From Bacteroidetes bacterium GWF2_35_48 (GTDB lineage: Bacteria > Bacteroidota > Bacteroidia > Bacteroidales > GWF2-35-48): 36,447 nucleotides of DNA. Below the pieces are notes generated by a model. The model was not told the origin of the DNA. It saw nothing but the letters and a program-made list of their open reading frames with translations, and ran no database searches. Positions 2,413-21,692 of this stretch are shown one piece after another. A program made the translations under genes and the position numbers. Location of the stretch: positions 1-36,447 of the forward strand of contig MEOG01000067.1 of NCBI GenBank assembly GCA_001769125.1. The letters run 5' to 3'. The number at the start of each line of letters is the position of its first letter. The first letter of the stretch is position 1.

Positions 2413-2561
2413 AGCGTAAACAATATTATATTTCTAATAGTAAAACATTCAAAATCATTTCTCCCAAATATAATGATAAATCAGGTAATTTAGCTCATGT
2501 ATTTGAAGATAATAATCATTTTTTTCATAGTAATCACTTTTTGTTTACTGACTGATTATTT

Positions 2562-2686
2562 AGTGTTTGTCCATAATGTCCGATAGCTGCGTTACTCTCG
2601 AATTGAAAACAGTCATTTACAAAAGTAAACTCCTTGGTTTTCAATTCTTCGAAAGCCTTGCTCTCGAACATTCTGAATGAAACACT
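2562..2686 (-). repeat. Nested-hairpin intergenic element, copy 1
   Basis: On the minus strand this gap holds three nested stems: an outer AGTGTTT/AAACACT (2562-2568 with 2680-2686, plus a weaker AATGTTCG/CGGACATT pair inside it), a perfect 11-bp middle stem GAATTGAAAAC/GTTTTCAATTC (2600-2610 with 2637-2647), and an inner 5-bp stem TTTAC/GTAAA with a TTTT loop (2616-2629). The unpaired segments AGGAG and TGACT flank the inner stem, and CAAGGCTTTCGAAG and AGAGTAACG flank the middle stem. The same layout and unpaired segments recur at 21420-21590 with different stem sequences. It lies just after the stop codon of the upstream protease, in the same orientation. Function is unknown. It could be a REP/RAYT-type mobile palindrome or a 3'-UTR structure. 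Confidence 0.7.
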
Positions 2687-2703
2687 GACTTTATAGACAG
2701 ACT

Positions 2704-5634
2704 CTATTTAATCAAACTAATTTTTTTTATTATTGATTGATCTTTTGATATTACCTGTACCAAATAATGTCCTGTTGAAAACTGTGACATATCAACCTGG
2801 GTAAGCGTTTTTGCTGCACTGTTTTTATAAATTAATTCTCCTAACACATTGTAAATACAAATCATATTATTTTCAGCATTTGTAATATTTATGATTCCTG
2901 TTGTCGGATTCGGAAAAATCAATACACAATCTTTAGTCAGTTTTTCTTCAATTCCTACAGTTGCACAGTTAATGGAAGCCTCCCAGCCTAAACCATTTGC
3001 AAGTTGATCTGAATGAAAAACATAAGTCAAAGCACCGTCAGCATTAGTGGCGGTTACAGTCCCCGGGGAAATAGTTCCACAATATTTGCCTATTAATGGT
3101 GAACTGGTGGAGTTCCCATCAAAAACCTGTAAGTAGTCATATCCGCAACTTGGTTCTGCTTCCATATCAAATCCGGTAAATATCATTTGAAGTTTATTCC
3201 CTGCTACATCAGGCAAAAAAATCATAGTTAAATCTTCATAATTTTGATATGATCCATCTAATCCGCCAGAATCATAAAAATTACCGGAACAGGTACTTAC
3301 AGTAGTTGATGCCATATTAAATATAATTGGAGGCACATTAACCGTAATATAATTTGTTTTGGTCATTGTATTTGTAGGCGTTCCGACAGTTAAGACTGCA
3401 TCAAATACACCTGCTGTATTATAGGTAATCGTATGCGGACCCGCTCCCGTACCTATAGATGGTGTTCCACCGGGAAACGACCAATTGTAAGAGGTGATTA
3501 TTCCTGTAGATTGATTTGTATAAATTACCTGCCCACCCTCAGTTATAGTTGTAGGGCTGCCTGTAAAATCAGCAACAGGGATGTTTGTTGGCAGCGTGGT
3601 AAACATCACATCATTGCCATAAGCAGTATCTGTGCTATTTATAGCATAAGCACGTACATGATATGTTGTATTTGCGATTAATCCTGTAACATTATTGGAA
3701 AAAATGCCTGTGCCGGTTCCATCGCTTGTATGAAAGTCTAAAATAGTCGGATTTGCTGTTAGTCCTCCACAAACGCCACGGGCAATAACTGGATTACCCC
3801 CATCATCAATAACATTACCTCCTACTGTTGCTGTTGTTTCAGTAATTGCCGTTGCAGCAGCAGTTGTTACCGTAAGAACAGGTATGTAATTAATACAATT
3901 AATAGAAGCAGCCCAACCTGGCCATGCGCCCCAAGCATTAGAATGAAAAACAAAGGTTAAAGCTCCTTCTTGATTTGTGGCGGTGATAATCCCTGGAGAT
4001 GTAGTTCCGCTGAATGTACCTATTAAAGGCGAGCTAATAGAACTTCCATCATAAATTTTTAAATAATTGTATGGATCAATGTTTAATTGAAACGCCGTGA
4101 AAGTCATCTGAAGTTTATTTCCGGGGACATCTGGTAAAAATGTCATTGTTTTGTCTTCATCTAATTGAATTGTACCGTTATATCCTCCTGAATCAAAAAA
4201 ACCACCGGAACATGTTGTAATAGTAGTGTTGGATAGGTTATAAGTTGTTCCGGGTGTTACTACTAAAATATATGCAGTTTTTGTCATAGTGTTAGTCATA
4301 GATGCAGTGTTTGTAACTGTTAGACTAACTGTGTATAATCCTGGGTTCGGATAAGAATGAGGAGGAGGGGTTTGACTGCTAGACGTTGTCCCATCGCCAA
4401 AGTCCCACAACCATGAATTTATGGTTGTTCCGGCAGGGGTATATGAATTTTGCGAAAATTGAACATTCAATGGGGCATTTCCACAAACTGTATTTGCAGA
4501 AAAACTAGCGGTGAGAACATGTGGTATAATTCCTCTGTAATTAACCCAGCTTGTACCTGTACCTCCCCCTATTTGGTTTACCCCATAAGATATTCTCATG
4601 TATCCGTTTTCTCCCCAACCTGAACCCCATGAATTTCTTAATATCCAATAGCCACTGCTACCATTACTTAACAAAGTATCTTTCCACCCGACAAGAACCA
4701 CAGCATGATCTATCTGAGAGCCCTCGTCAGTTGTTACAATACCGCCAGTATAGCCCATAAAATTAGAACCACTGGCAAATACATTAGTCCAAACAGGTCC
4801 ATAATCATAAATTTTTTGCTTCATATCTGCATCAGAGTATACAAATCCATAATCCAATGCTTGTTCGTGATAAGGGTAGGGTGGCATGCAGGTATCTTCA
4901 TAGCTAACATACGGAACATCGCTTTCATAAACCGCACCTGGTGTTACCCAATACCCATGTGGGGAATACCCTCCTGAACATCCGAACATATCCGTTGCGC
5001 AATTTACAAGCCATTGTTCTGAAAGATCTCTGACTACATGATCCCATATATTTATGCTTGCTTCAAAAGTTCCGCATCCGGCAAATGCCCAGCAACTGCC
5101 ACAAGATCCCTGACTCTTTACCGGAGTACATTCTGACTGCCAGCTAAATGATGATGGTAGTGATTTTGGTGTTGTTGAGGGTTTAATTTTTTTAACTGGT
5201 TCTATTTTAACGGGAGGCACATAATCCCCAGTATATCTCCCACTGGAAACAATATTAATTTTAAAAATATCAATAGATGCTTTATCTTTTTCCCATAACC
5301 TTTTATATTCTAAAGTAAGCTCTGAAAGCCCCTGAGAAACCCCTGCAATCCGAATAATTTTCGTACCCGGTTGCCCTACTAAATCCTTACTCTGACCTGG
5401 CAAAAATTCCTCATCGCCAATTGTCGTTATCACACCTTTATCCATGTTCGTTATATACCAGTTATAACCTGTTGAAGGAGTTGCCGGCAATTTGATGTAA
5501 ATAATCTGATTATTATTCAGATGAATGGTTTGCCCTGAATTACTCTGTGTAAGTTCAAGGAAATCTTGACCGTTTACGCTAAAGACGAATAAAACTGTTA
5601 TTATTGTCAGCATAAAGAATAATTTTTTTCTCAT
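2704..5634 (-). CDS. I42-inhibitor/C1A papain-like cysteine protease with PKD, CUB, Fn3-like and T9SS type A domains
   Basis: A 976-residue secreted protein. Order: signal peptide (1-22); chagasin-like I42 domain (about 25-128) with loops TPSTGYNW (52-59), GQPG (87-90) and RLWEKD (112-117), matching the three inhibitory loops of that family; C1A papain-like catalytic domain (about 160-370) with Gln175, Cys181, His310 and Asn334 all present; PKD (about 375-458); CUB-like (about 465-580); Fn3-like (585-680); PKD (685-766); CUB-like (770-890); and a T9SS type A sorting domain (about 900-976, beginning with a FPNPTTG motif). No classical I29 propeptide is seen; the I42 domain takes its place. Predicted to be exported by Sec, then across the outer membrane by T9SS and anchored or released at the surface, where it would cut proteins. 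The downstream gene is a tandem paralogue. The ATG at 5634 is followed by a good signal peptide. Confidence 0.93.
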   Translation of the reverse strand: MRKKLFFMLTIITVLFVFSVNGQDFLELTQSNSGQTIHLNNNQIIYIKLPATPSTGYNWYITNMDKGVITTIGDEEFLPGQSKDLVGQPGTKIIRIAGVSQGLSELTLEYKRLWEKDKASIDIFKINIVSSGRYTGDYVPPVKIEPVKKIKPSTTPKSLPSSFSWQSECTPVKSQGSCGSCWAFAGCGTFEASINIWDHVVRDLSEQWLVNCATDMFGCSGGYSPHGYWVTPGAVYESDVPYVSYEDTCMPPYPYHEQALDYGFVYSDADMKQKIYDYGPVWTNVFASGSNFMGYTGGIVTTDEGSQIDHAVVLVGWKDTLLSNGSSGYWILRNSWGSGWGENGYMRISYGVNQIGGGTGTSWVNYRGIIPHVLTASFSANTVCGNAPLNVQFSQNSYTPAGTTINSWLWDFGDGTTSSSQTPPPHSYPNPGLYTVSLTVTNTASMTNTMTKTAYILVVTPGTTYNLSNTTITTCSGGFFDSGGYNGTIQLDEDKTMTFLPDVPGNKLQMTFTAFQLNIDPYNYLKIYDGSSISSPLIGTFSGTTSPGIITATNQEGALTFVFHSNAWGAWPGWAASINCINYIPVLTVTTAAATAITETTATVGGNVIDDGGNPVIARGVCGGLTANPTILDFHTSDGTGTGIFSNNVTGLIANTTYHVRAYAINSTDTAYGNDVMFTTLPTNIPVADFTGSPTTITEGGQVIYTNQSTGIITSYNWSFPGGTPSIGTGAGPHTITYNTAGVFDAVLTVGTPTNTMTKTNYITVNVPPIIFNMASTTVSTCSGNFYDSGGLDGSYQNYEDLTMIFLPDVAGNKLQMIFTGFDMEAEPSCGYDYLQVFDGNSTSSPLIGKYCGTISPGTVTATNADGALTYVFHSDQLANGLGWEASINCATVGIEEKLTKDCVLIFPNPTTGIINITNAENNMICIYNVLGELIYKNSAAKTLTQVDMSQFSTGHYLVQVISKDQSIIKKISLIK

Positions 5635-20770: not shown

Positions 20771-21421
20771 ATGAGAAAATTAATTAGAGTAATGTTAGTT
20801 GATGACCACGAAATTGTTCGTGATGGGATTACAGCCTTAATCCAAGGGACAAGTGACATTCAGGTTGTTGCCGAAGCATCTGACAGTACAAACCTTTTCA
20901 ACAAATTAAAAACGGTTAAACCGGATATTTTAATTTTGGATATAGCTCTTCCTGATACTTCAGGAATTGAAATCACAAAAATGGTAACGTCTAATTATCC
21001 GGAAATAAAAATAATAATCTTTTCTGGTACACACAATGATGATGATGTTTTTGAAACGCTTAACTCAGGAGCAAAAGGATTTGTTACTAAAGATTCTATC
21101 AGGGAAGATCTTCTAGAAGCAATTTATTCTGTTTATAATGGGAAAGAATATCTTAGTGATACCATCTCCAACACAATGTTAATAAAATACATTAGCAAAA
21201 ATAAACAAATAATAAATACTCAGGAACAAATAAATTTGACTCAACGTGAAATTGAAGTTTTAAAGCTAATCGCTGAAGGATTTCGGTATAAAGAGATTGG
21301 TGAAAAATTATTTCTAAGTGCAAGAACAATTGAAACCCATAAAAACAATATACTTCAAAAATTAGACCTTAAAACGATTACAGATCTTGTTAAATATGCA
21401 ATAAAAAATAAATTAATATAA
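20771..21421 (+). CDS. NarL/LuxR-family response regulator
   Basis: 216 residues. The receiver domain (about 1-125) has the acidic pair Asp11/Asp12, phosphoacceptor Asp57 (LILDIALPD), Ser85 and Lys107. A LuxR-type helix-turn-helix follows (about 150-212: LTQREIEVLKLIAEGFRYKEIG, then LSARTIETHKNNILQKL), so this is a DNA-binding output regulator. It sits 12 bp after the histidine kinase and is the probable cognate partner. Targets cannot be read from the sequence; the divergent T9SS propeller gene across the palindrome-bearing gap is one possibility. A nested-hairpin element begins at its stop codon. Confidence 0.95.
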   Translation: MRKLIRVMLVDDHEIVRDGITALIQGTSDIQVVAEASDSTNLFNKLKTVKPDILILDIALPDTSGIEITKMVTSNYPEIKIIIFSGTHNDDDVFETLNSGAKGFVTKDSIREDLLEAIYSVYNGKEYLSDTISNTMLIKYISKNKQIINTQEQINLTQREIEVLKLIAEGFRYKEIGEKLFLSARTIETHKNNILQKLDLKTITDLVKYAIKNKLI

Positions 21422-21590
21422 TTAGCGCCAGCAAGAAAACTCATGTTTTTTACTCACAATGTATGTGCCTGATAAGAAAACATCAAGTTCAAGGCTTGCG
21501 AAGACCTGAAAATTAGGAGTGTACTAATGTACATGACTACTTTTCAGGTCAAGCGTAACGATGAAATTGATGTTTTCTTGCAGGCTAATT
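21420..21590 (+). repeat. Nested-hairpin intergenic element, copy 2
   Basis: Starts at the stop codon of the response regulator and fills most of the gap to tRNA-Asp. Stems: an outermost pair AATTAGC..GCAAGAAAAC (21420-21440) with GTTTTCTTGC.GGCTAATT (21572-21590); a competing perfect 13-bp stem AAGAAAACATCAA/TTGATGTTTTCTT (21474-21486 with 21567-21579); a perfect 10-bp stem GACCTGAAAA/TTTTCAGGTC (21503-21512 with 21541-21550); and an inner 5-bp stem TGTAC/GTACA with a TAAT loop (21520-21533). The segments CAAGGCTTGCGAAG, AGGAG, TGACT and AGCGTAACG are shared with the element at 2562-2686, while the stems differ by compensating changes. Family not recognised. Confidence 0.7.
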
Positions 21591-21692
21591 AGCTTTTGCT
21601 GTAAGCTCTGTACAATGATAAACTGATAATACTTCATTGTTGATGTTTTCCACACTTGTTTTAATGAGTTTTTTTGAGGATGGTAAAAATAA

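Follow-up and report, generated by a model that had tools for sequence, protein, structure and literature searches.

Miniature transposons (MITEs) are usually regarded as decaying scraps between inverted repeats, and Cardinium is one of their hosts in the Bacteroidota. MITECca01 of Cardinium has a length of about 240 bp, is derived from a resident insertion sequence of the IS982 family and was described in one strain (available sections of PMC9769881). An element of P. gingivalis has IS5-type ends and duplications of varying length (available sections of PMC4596501), and is therefore a different thing from the one treated here. The BOX elements of Streptococcus are presented in the available sections of PMC3049150 as modular MITE-like repeats numbering about 100 per genome; their ends resemble a resident insertion sequence, and stable RNA folds are predicted for them. 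In S. suis, the same type of inner boxB module occurs with two sets of end modules around it. ERIC (IRU) and Correia (NEMIS) elements are MITEs of 100-200 bp whose transcripts form stable hairpins, with reported effects on mRNA via RNase E for ERIC (depending on orientation) and via RNase III for NEMIS (available sections of PMC2229807). REP/RAYT (GTAG) and CGTC repeats are palindromes of 20-40 bp with conserved unpaired tags, the CGTC type being reported in Bacteroidetes among other phyla and having no dedicated transposase (available sections of PMC3733652).

Here, we analysed a window of 36,447 nucleotides from a contig of Bacteroidetes bacterium GWF2_35_48, in which a first-pass annotation had pointed out a structured repeat at 2562-2686 with a second copy on the opposite strand. 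A published description of such an element was not found in open PMC text.

Anatomy of the two window elements

Both copies are complete miniature transposons. Copy 1 lies on the minus strand, has a length of 142 bp (2563..2704) and carries type-1 ends of the GTCCATAA class; its boundaries are set by inverted ends and identical 6-bp duplications, the target site duplication TAAATA being located at 2557..2562 on the right side and at 2705..2710 on the left side. The span proposed at first contained only the hairpin, and the complete element adds to it an outer left terminal repeat of 18 nt, GAGTCTGTCTATAAAGTC (2687..2704). This is followed by an inner left arm (2661..2686), a degenerate second copy of the terminal repeat which pairs with the right arm, then by a conserved structured core of 71 nt (2590..2660), and by the right arm with the right terminal repeat (27 nt, 2563..2589). 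The core of copy 1 scored 101.4 bits with the covariance model R1, in which this sequence is included. Upstream of copy 1, and also on the minus strand, a gene at 2704..5634 encodes a 976-aa protein whose domains are a papain-type protease, PKD, CUB and a type IX secretion tail. The TAG stop of this gene consists of the last two duplication bases and the first base of the element; the insertion completes the stop by providing the G.

Copy 2, on the plus strand, has a length of 161 bp (21425..21585) and type-2 ends of the GCAAGAAAAC class, its right end being two bases shorter than in sister copies. The duplication TAATTA is found at 21419..21424 on the left side, where it contains the TAA stop of the upstream gene, and at 21586..21591 on the right side. 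Between them are the outer left terminal repeat with a linker (21425..21463), the inner left arm, in which GATAAG replaces GCAAG (21464..21489), the conserved structured core (21490..21560; 71.2 bits with R1), and the right arm with the right terminal repeat (21561..21585). The gene directly upstream, at 20771..21421 on the plus strand, encodes a response regulator with a receiver and a LuxR-type domain.

Elements of this kind have a general order of 6-bp duplication, outer terminal repeat, sometimes a linker, inner left arm, 71-nt core, right arm ending in the right terminal repeat, and second 6-bp duplication. Outer terminal repeats belong to the classes GTGTCTGTCCATAAAG, GTGCCTGCAAGAAAAC, GTGCATCTTAGAAAAC and others. 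By reading, sequence changes in the inner arm relative to the terminal repeat follow a pattern (TTCAGAATGTTCG for TCCATAATGTCCG, GATAAG for GCAAG), and some of these changes leave U.G pairs on the sense strand.

The stretch around copy 1 folds at -50.4 kcal/mol (z -6.3) and that around copy 2 at -67.3 kcal/mol (z -8.6), with none of 200 shuffles as stable in either case. The shared unpaired words and the differing, still paired stems reported for the two copies are all in place; the nested triple hairpin is real as to both folds, its form being instead one long hairpin of stacked helices. By reading, neither window copy has an intrinsic-terminator T-run directly after the hairpin.

Distribution and single-strand selection of the core

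With R1, a covariance model of the shared core built from 13 sequences of the own genome, at least 126 matches to the core were found in this genome (E <= 1e-3; a lower bound, with 150 candidates scored). BLAST against the 5.98-Mb genome gave 44 matches with copy 1 and 59 with copy 2 (40 candidates scored per query), those of copy 2 including opposite-strand matches at the same places. The core is also present in 25 of 98 other genomes of the same order (26 of 99 including the own genome), seven of them having from 20 to at least 50 matches each, with 50 candidates scored per genome. The copies beyond the window that the first-pass annotation had looked to thus do exist in number. Scanning the named genomes of 84,980 species with a pattern revealed at least 109 stretches with the core. 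All 109 listed records are MAGs, with titles naming Bacteroidales, Bacteroidota or Bacteroidetes, Prolixibacteraceae, Draconibacterium, Dysgonamonadaceae, Salinivirgaceae, Saprospiraceae, Cryomorphaceae, Vicingaceae and Flavobacteriales, six “Chlorobiota” and four plain “bacterium”; the listed elements come from relatively few genomes, several MAGs contributing many rows, and the counts are not independent. A sample spread evenly over the phylum (83 genera including the own, genomes at least 90% complete) was searched with a broader model, R2, at E <= 1e-5 and with strict filters, and none of its 147 other genomes matched. Because nearly complete genomes of the phylum seldom carry the element and all listed named records are MAGs, it may have been overlooked. 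Blastn of copy 1 against plasmid and phage collections gave no match and viral contigs gave no exact pattern match, and a phage, plasmid or viral origin was rejected on these grounds.

Covariation was analysed in an alignment (A3) of 94 cores, 91 of them distinct, from 78 loci: 56 of the 109 listed named ones, 10 of the own genome and 12 of relatives. Standard pairs occupy 97.0% of the pair cells, the stems thus being preserved in homologues, and 17 of the 20 core pairs show changes on both sides. The covariation score was 0.448 compared with 0.130 after shuffling, none of 500 shuffles reaching the observed score, and it fell to 0.087 or less once partners were slid by 1-3 columns; A3 was fitted to R1 and so leans towards the R1 structure. 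A tree-based null, which keeps the tree and the changes per column and uses the same alignment (90 sequences kept, core only), gave 0.132 (sd 0.022, maximum 0.205) against an observed 0.472, again with none of 500 simulations reaching the observed value. Covariation around fixed single-stranded motifs had been taken as a sign of selected structure from two copies, a view which these results bear out. The pair at columns 9-108, for instance, is for the most part G-C (47) or U-A (36).

The non-canonical parts rank among the most conserved positions of the core. Of the 91 distinct cores, 85 have tandem G.A facing G.A and 86 have a G.U pair next to this position; CGAA faces RAG in most cores, and AGGCTT occurs with RTAACG at the base. 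The GGAG which had been compared with a REP-like tag at a hairpin foot is in fact one half of this tandem G.A internal loop, facing TGAC. Outside the G.U pair beside the tandem G.A, G.U wobbles outnumber A.C mismatches on the sense strand (36 vs 13). Among the named elements, arms pair better with their own partner than with permuted arms of the same rough end class, none of 2000 permutations doing as well in each of three classes (59, 16 and 11 elements; the classes are simple-pattern ones and a few elements look misplaced). Folding energies favour the sense strand over its complement in 93 of 94 elements under RNA parameters (mean -46.4 vs -32.8 kcal/mol) and in 91 of 94 under DNA parameters; sequences from one genome are related, and these counts are not independent trials.

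If the element acted as a cruciform in double-stranded DNA, neither strand would be preferred, and quasi-palindrome correction would remove the fixed mismatches; the unit of selection is therefore a single strand, either RNA or DNA, as the first-pass annotation had suggested. Given the wobble pattern and the precedents of ERIC, NEMIS and BOX, the selected structure is probably RNA. Within families, private mutations are too few to show selection after insertion.

No described RNA family accounts for the fold. Rfam release 15 revealed only a tRNA at gathering score in the whole window, the best sub-threshold matches at the elements being Mahella-1 (18 bits vs 70.7) and mir-87 (18.3 vs 49), and a known RNA family was rejected. 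A small coding element was rejected as well. Stem 3 has a Shine-Dalgarno-like AGGAG and an ATG at its flanks; this ATG, the sole candidate start viewed, is not conserved, being lost by eye in L015, L018 and L019, and the downstream frame shifts between types.

Gene neighbours, called with a crude open-frame caller, were counted for both strands. Tandem neighbours in the own genome were sense in 23 cases and antisense in 44 (p 0.014), and in the listed named genomes sense in 26 and antisense in 20 (p 0.46). They do not favour sense co-transcription, and an element of read-through mRNA with a fixed sense orientation was rejected. The right end abuts a gene stop more often than the left end in the own genome (26 vs 8, p 0.003), the figures for the listed named elements being 11 vs 5 (p 0.21). 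By GC skew of the flanks, a weak test on drafts, no replication-strand bias was seen, the sense strand having positive flanks in 52 of 103 listed named and 53 of 118 own elements.

Terminal repeats and the candidate mobiliser

An exact 6-bp duplication accompanied by matched ends was identified in 73 of the 126 own and in 43 of the 110 listed named elements, and the duplication has the form TANNTA in 68 of these 73 and 42 of these 43, the same counts being obtained after dropping the small TA bonus of the duplication finder. Duplications with one mismatch add 7 own and 10 listed named elements. As a control, the left side of each element was joined to the right side of another, which gave only 3-9 own and 4-15 named exact calls (five shuffles each). 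Ends and duplications remained uncalled in 46 of 126 own and 57 of 110 listed named elements, likely by reason of decay, contig edges and inserts. The right arm measures exactly 27 nt in 62 of the 73 own and 42 of the 43 listed named elements with exact calls. Elements of the own genome are commonly 141-143, 161-164 or 185 bp long, those of the named genomes 141-143 or 151-153 bp. One core is shared by elements with different end types.

A search for type-1 ends in the own genome yielded 55 + 54 places, with none for the reversed-pattern control. As a rough estimate, 109 + 158 end matches correspond to about 134 elements, compared with 126 cores, so that most elements with these ends carry the core; isolated ends without an intact core also exist. 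One pair of type-1 ends, 1.65 kb apart, bounds an insertion sequence on contig C133 with TAATTA duplications, and its DDE transposase passes the cut-off of the NCBIfam model ISNCY_1 (NF033593; 331.9 vs 325 bits). Matched ends with TANNTA duplications were found at 6 of 30 ISNCY-type loci examined (C133 and five in other genomes), with end types GTGTCTGAAAGAAAAC, GTGTCTCTAAGAAAAC and GGGTCTGCTGA; the other 24 are without TANNTA-flanked ends, many of them being weak or truncated matches. The core was not found in 32 loci with ISNCY-type matches, C133 included (31 distinct places, L130 being the same as L259), and the idea that it is part of an autonomous transposon was rejected for that reason. 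Of the 26 core-bearing genomes, 13 have an ISNCY match, as do 22 of the 73 others, a loose association that draft assemblies would blur. Since the small elements agree with the ISNCY family in their ends and target rule, mobilisation in trans is the natural inference, and transposases of the ISNCY-type DDE family, not RAYT, likely mobilise them. A complete autonomous partner for type 2 was not found in the own draft genome, only related ends being seen elsewhere (L262, L263); type-2 ends sit at contig edges, and such a partner may thus have been lost in assembly. Type-1 ends TAGTGTCTGTCCATACAGTC likewise lie at many contig edges of G000 (for example C45:27455, C39:65-84, C57:77-96, C72:79-98, C89:79-98, C101:61-80, C125:64-83 and C135:72-91), which suggests that the draft lacks another high-copy insertion sequence.

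Several single loci show variations of the basic design. L141:632-671 (G000:C27) is a minimal element, consisting by eye of hardly more than its two terminal repeats set back to back, with TAAATA on both sides; here the ends alone seem to have moved. L030 (G000:C82) combines a type-2 left half with a type-1 right half, which suggests an exchange of modules. Close pairs of cores (gap below 400 bp) have the same orientation in 3 of 3 own cases and in 6 of 6 cases among the listed named loci with multiple matches (close-pair loci L010, L055, L202, L172, L188, L168, L209 and L191, and G000:C100:61516-61813), which would reflect either head-to-tail insertion or loss of inverted pairs. In some pairs a single TANNTA borders both the right end of the first element and the left end of the second, also where the end types differ (L055). 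Many copies carry a palindrome of 21 bp (CCTGCCTTGCCGGTAGGCAGG and CCTGCCTGTCCGGTAGGCAGG forms) inserted at one point of the core, CAAG^GCTT (L013, L016, L017, L020, L025, L026, L044, L049, L052, L053, L055, L056 and L058-L060), and a similar palindrome stands ahead of stem 3 in L044 and L049. In L022, L029, L133 and L145, a second recurring module (AACAGGGCAAAC.., a hairpin, ..TTTGAGCCAGCT.GTGCG) comes after the core or replaces it.

Possible function, alternatives and known systems

The reading we lean towards is that both copies are non-autonomous MITEs mobilised in trans, with a hairpin that is selected as a single strand and acts as RNA. ISNCY-type DDE transposases would recognise the outer inverted ends, move the element and duplicate a TANNTA target of 6 bp; for type 1, the ends, the duplication and a matching transposon are established. 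Inside the ends, the degenerate inner end copy, the 71-nt core with its tandem G.A and CGAA/RAG loops, and the right end together form the hairpin. Once the element is transcribed, from a neighbour or by itself, the selected strand would act as RNA, and a conserved host RNA-binding protein or RNase may bind the core, whereby the insertion would be processed or insulated within the transcript as for ERIC and NEMIS/Correia. Only lineages keeping an intact core would continue to amplify. To judge from the sequence, pairing of the inner arm with the right end via U.G wobbles and bulges may serve to keep the hairpin, while the degenerate state of this arm would deny the transposase a second good end and avoid a perfect DNA palindrome. 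That the RNA is bound or processed in transcripts running through the element is held with modest confidence.

Selection on one strand would also be explained if the fold acted as single-stranded DNA, a hairpin extruded in replication or excision and used by a host factor or by the transposase, for which attC sites, IS200/IS605 ends and single-strand replication origins are the models. The sense strand is favoured under DNA parameters too, and tandem G.A mismatches are stable in DNA as well; yet the sense strand is unrelated to local GC skew (the weak test on drafts given above), a folded strand is not known to be required by DDE elements that have inverted ends and make target duplications, and the ISNCY-type loci examined do without the core. 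We regard this DNA-level role as possible but improbable. Somewhat more doubtful still is a core that works as a trans-acting small RNA or as a transposase tether, helping the MITE to compete for a transposase that prefers to act in cis. It would fit a core which is common to differing end types, present, by the rough estimate, in most elements with these ends and not found in the ISNCY-type loci, but no promoter was identified, and the end types, and so presumably the transposases, differ while the core does not. More speculative again, the core could be an undescribed class of structured RNA riding on several transposon ends, its RNA binding the ISNCY-type transposase or a host factor during transposition and so giving non-autonomous copies access to a cis-acting enzyme; if true, this would be RNA-assisted DDE transposition in bacteria.

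Two further readings fare worse against the same data. Palindromic DNA is prone to template-switch correction, and family copies differ by few private changes, so the pairing might be a mutational by-product of template switching in quasi-palindromes combined with recent copying of a few masters. Such correction would erase mismatches, yet the tandem G.A and the CGAA/RAG-type loops are kept, and it does not predict the preference for G.U over A.C or for one strand; we think this very unlikely. Kinship with REP-like palindromes moved by a RAYT (IS200-like) transposase, which the first-pass annotation had brought up from the GGAG motif, has next to no probability left. The elements are multicopy structured repeats, and a search for an IS200-like or RAYT gene, as then proposed, did reveal 10 Y1_Tnp matches in the genome. 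None of the six listed Y1_Tnp places, however, lies within 2 kb of a listed core, and the genome G046 (89% complete), in which at least 50 cores were counted, gave no match to Y1_Tnp. IS200/RAYT elements work by single-strand transfer; their repeats are moved by an IS200-like tyrosine transposase whose gene they flank, and are not known to have two-sided terminal repeats and target duplication; the terminal inverted repeats and 6-bp TANNTA duplications seen here, with ends matching an ISNCY-type DDE insertion sequence, fit a DDE transposase instead, and REP/RAYT was rejected. In one isolated case, L146 (G000:C82:73145-73489), a truncated type-1 element is found with an IS200-like Y1_Tnp gene a few hundred bases away.

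Among the known systems to which the elements come close, the insertion sequence at C133 has the same terminal repeats and a TAATTA duplication and differs by its transposase gene and the lack of the core. With REP and CGTC repeats, the elements have in common short dispersed palindromes with unpaired tags, and they differ by their inverted ends and target duplications. MITECca01, too, is a MITE whose host belongs to the Bacteroidota; the text of PMC9769881 does not use the term “secondary structure”. Action of MITEs at the RNA level has precedents in the available sections of PMC2229807 and PMC3049150. ERIC and NEMIS, whose hosts in the former are Enterobacteria and Neisseria, are likened here by description and not by sequence; compared with them, the Bacteroidota elements show a conserved non-canonical core and a doubled left end.

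The covariance models are now available to annotate more than 100 repeats in one genome, and could explain hairpins of uncultured Bacteroidota otherwise read as terminators, REPs or orphan RNAs. Selection on one strand only makes the need of bacterial MITEs for an RNA or single-strand fold directly testable.

The element shows the testable features of a MITE and is closest in design to BOX. The sequence, the ends and the mobiliser of BOX are not known to be shared, and the likeness is one of design and not of alignment, so that the element is not filed as a member; the word stem “covaria” is absent from PMC3049150. Unlike BOX, which the available sections of that paper place in a few streptococci, the core spans many Bacteroidota lineages. 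As with the BOX of S. suis described there, different ends surround one core, and in the Bacteroidota this core, with near-invariant non-canonical loops and covarying helices, persists across the phylum while the ends change.
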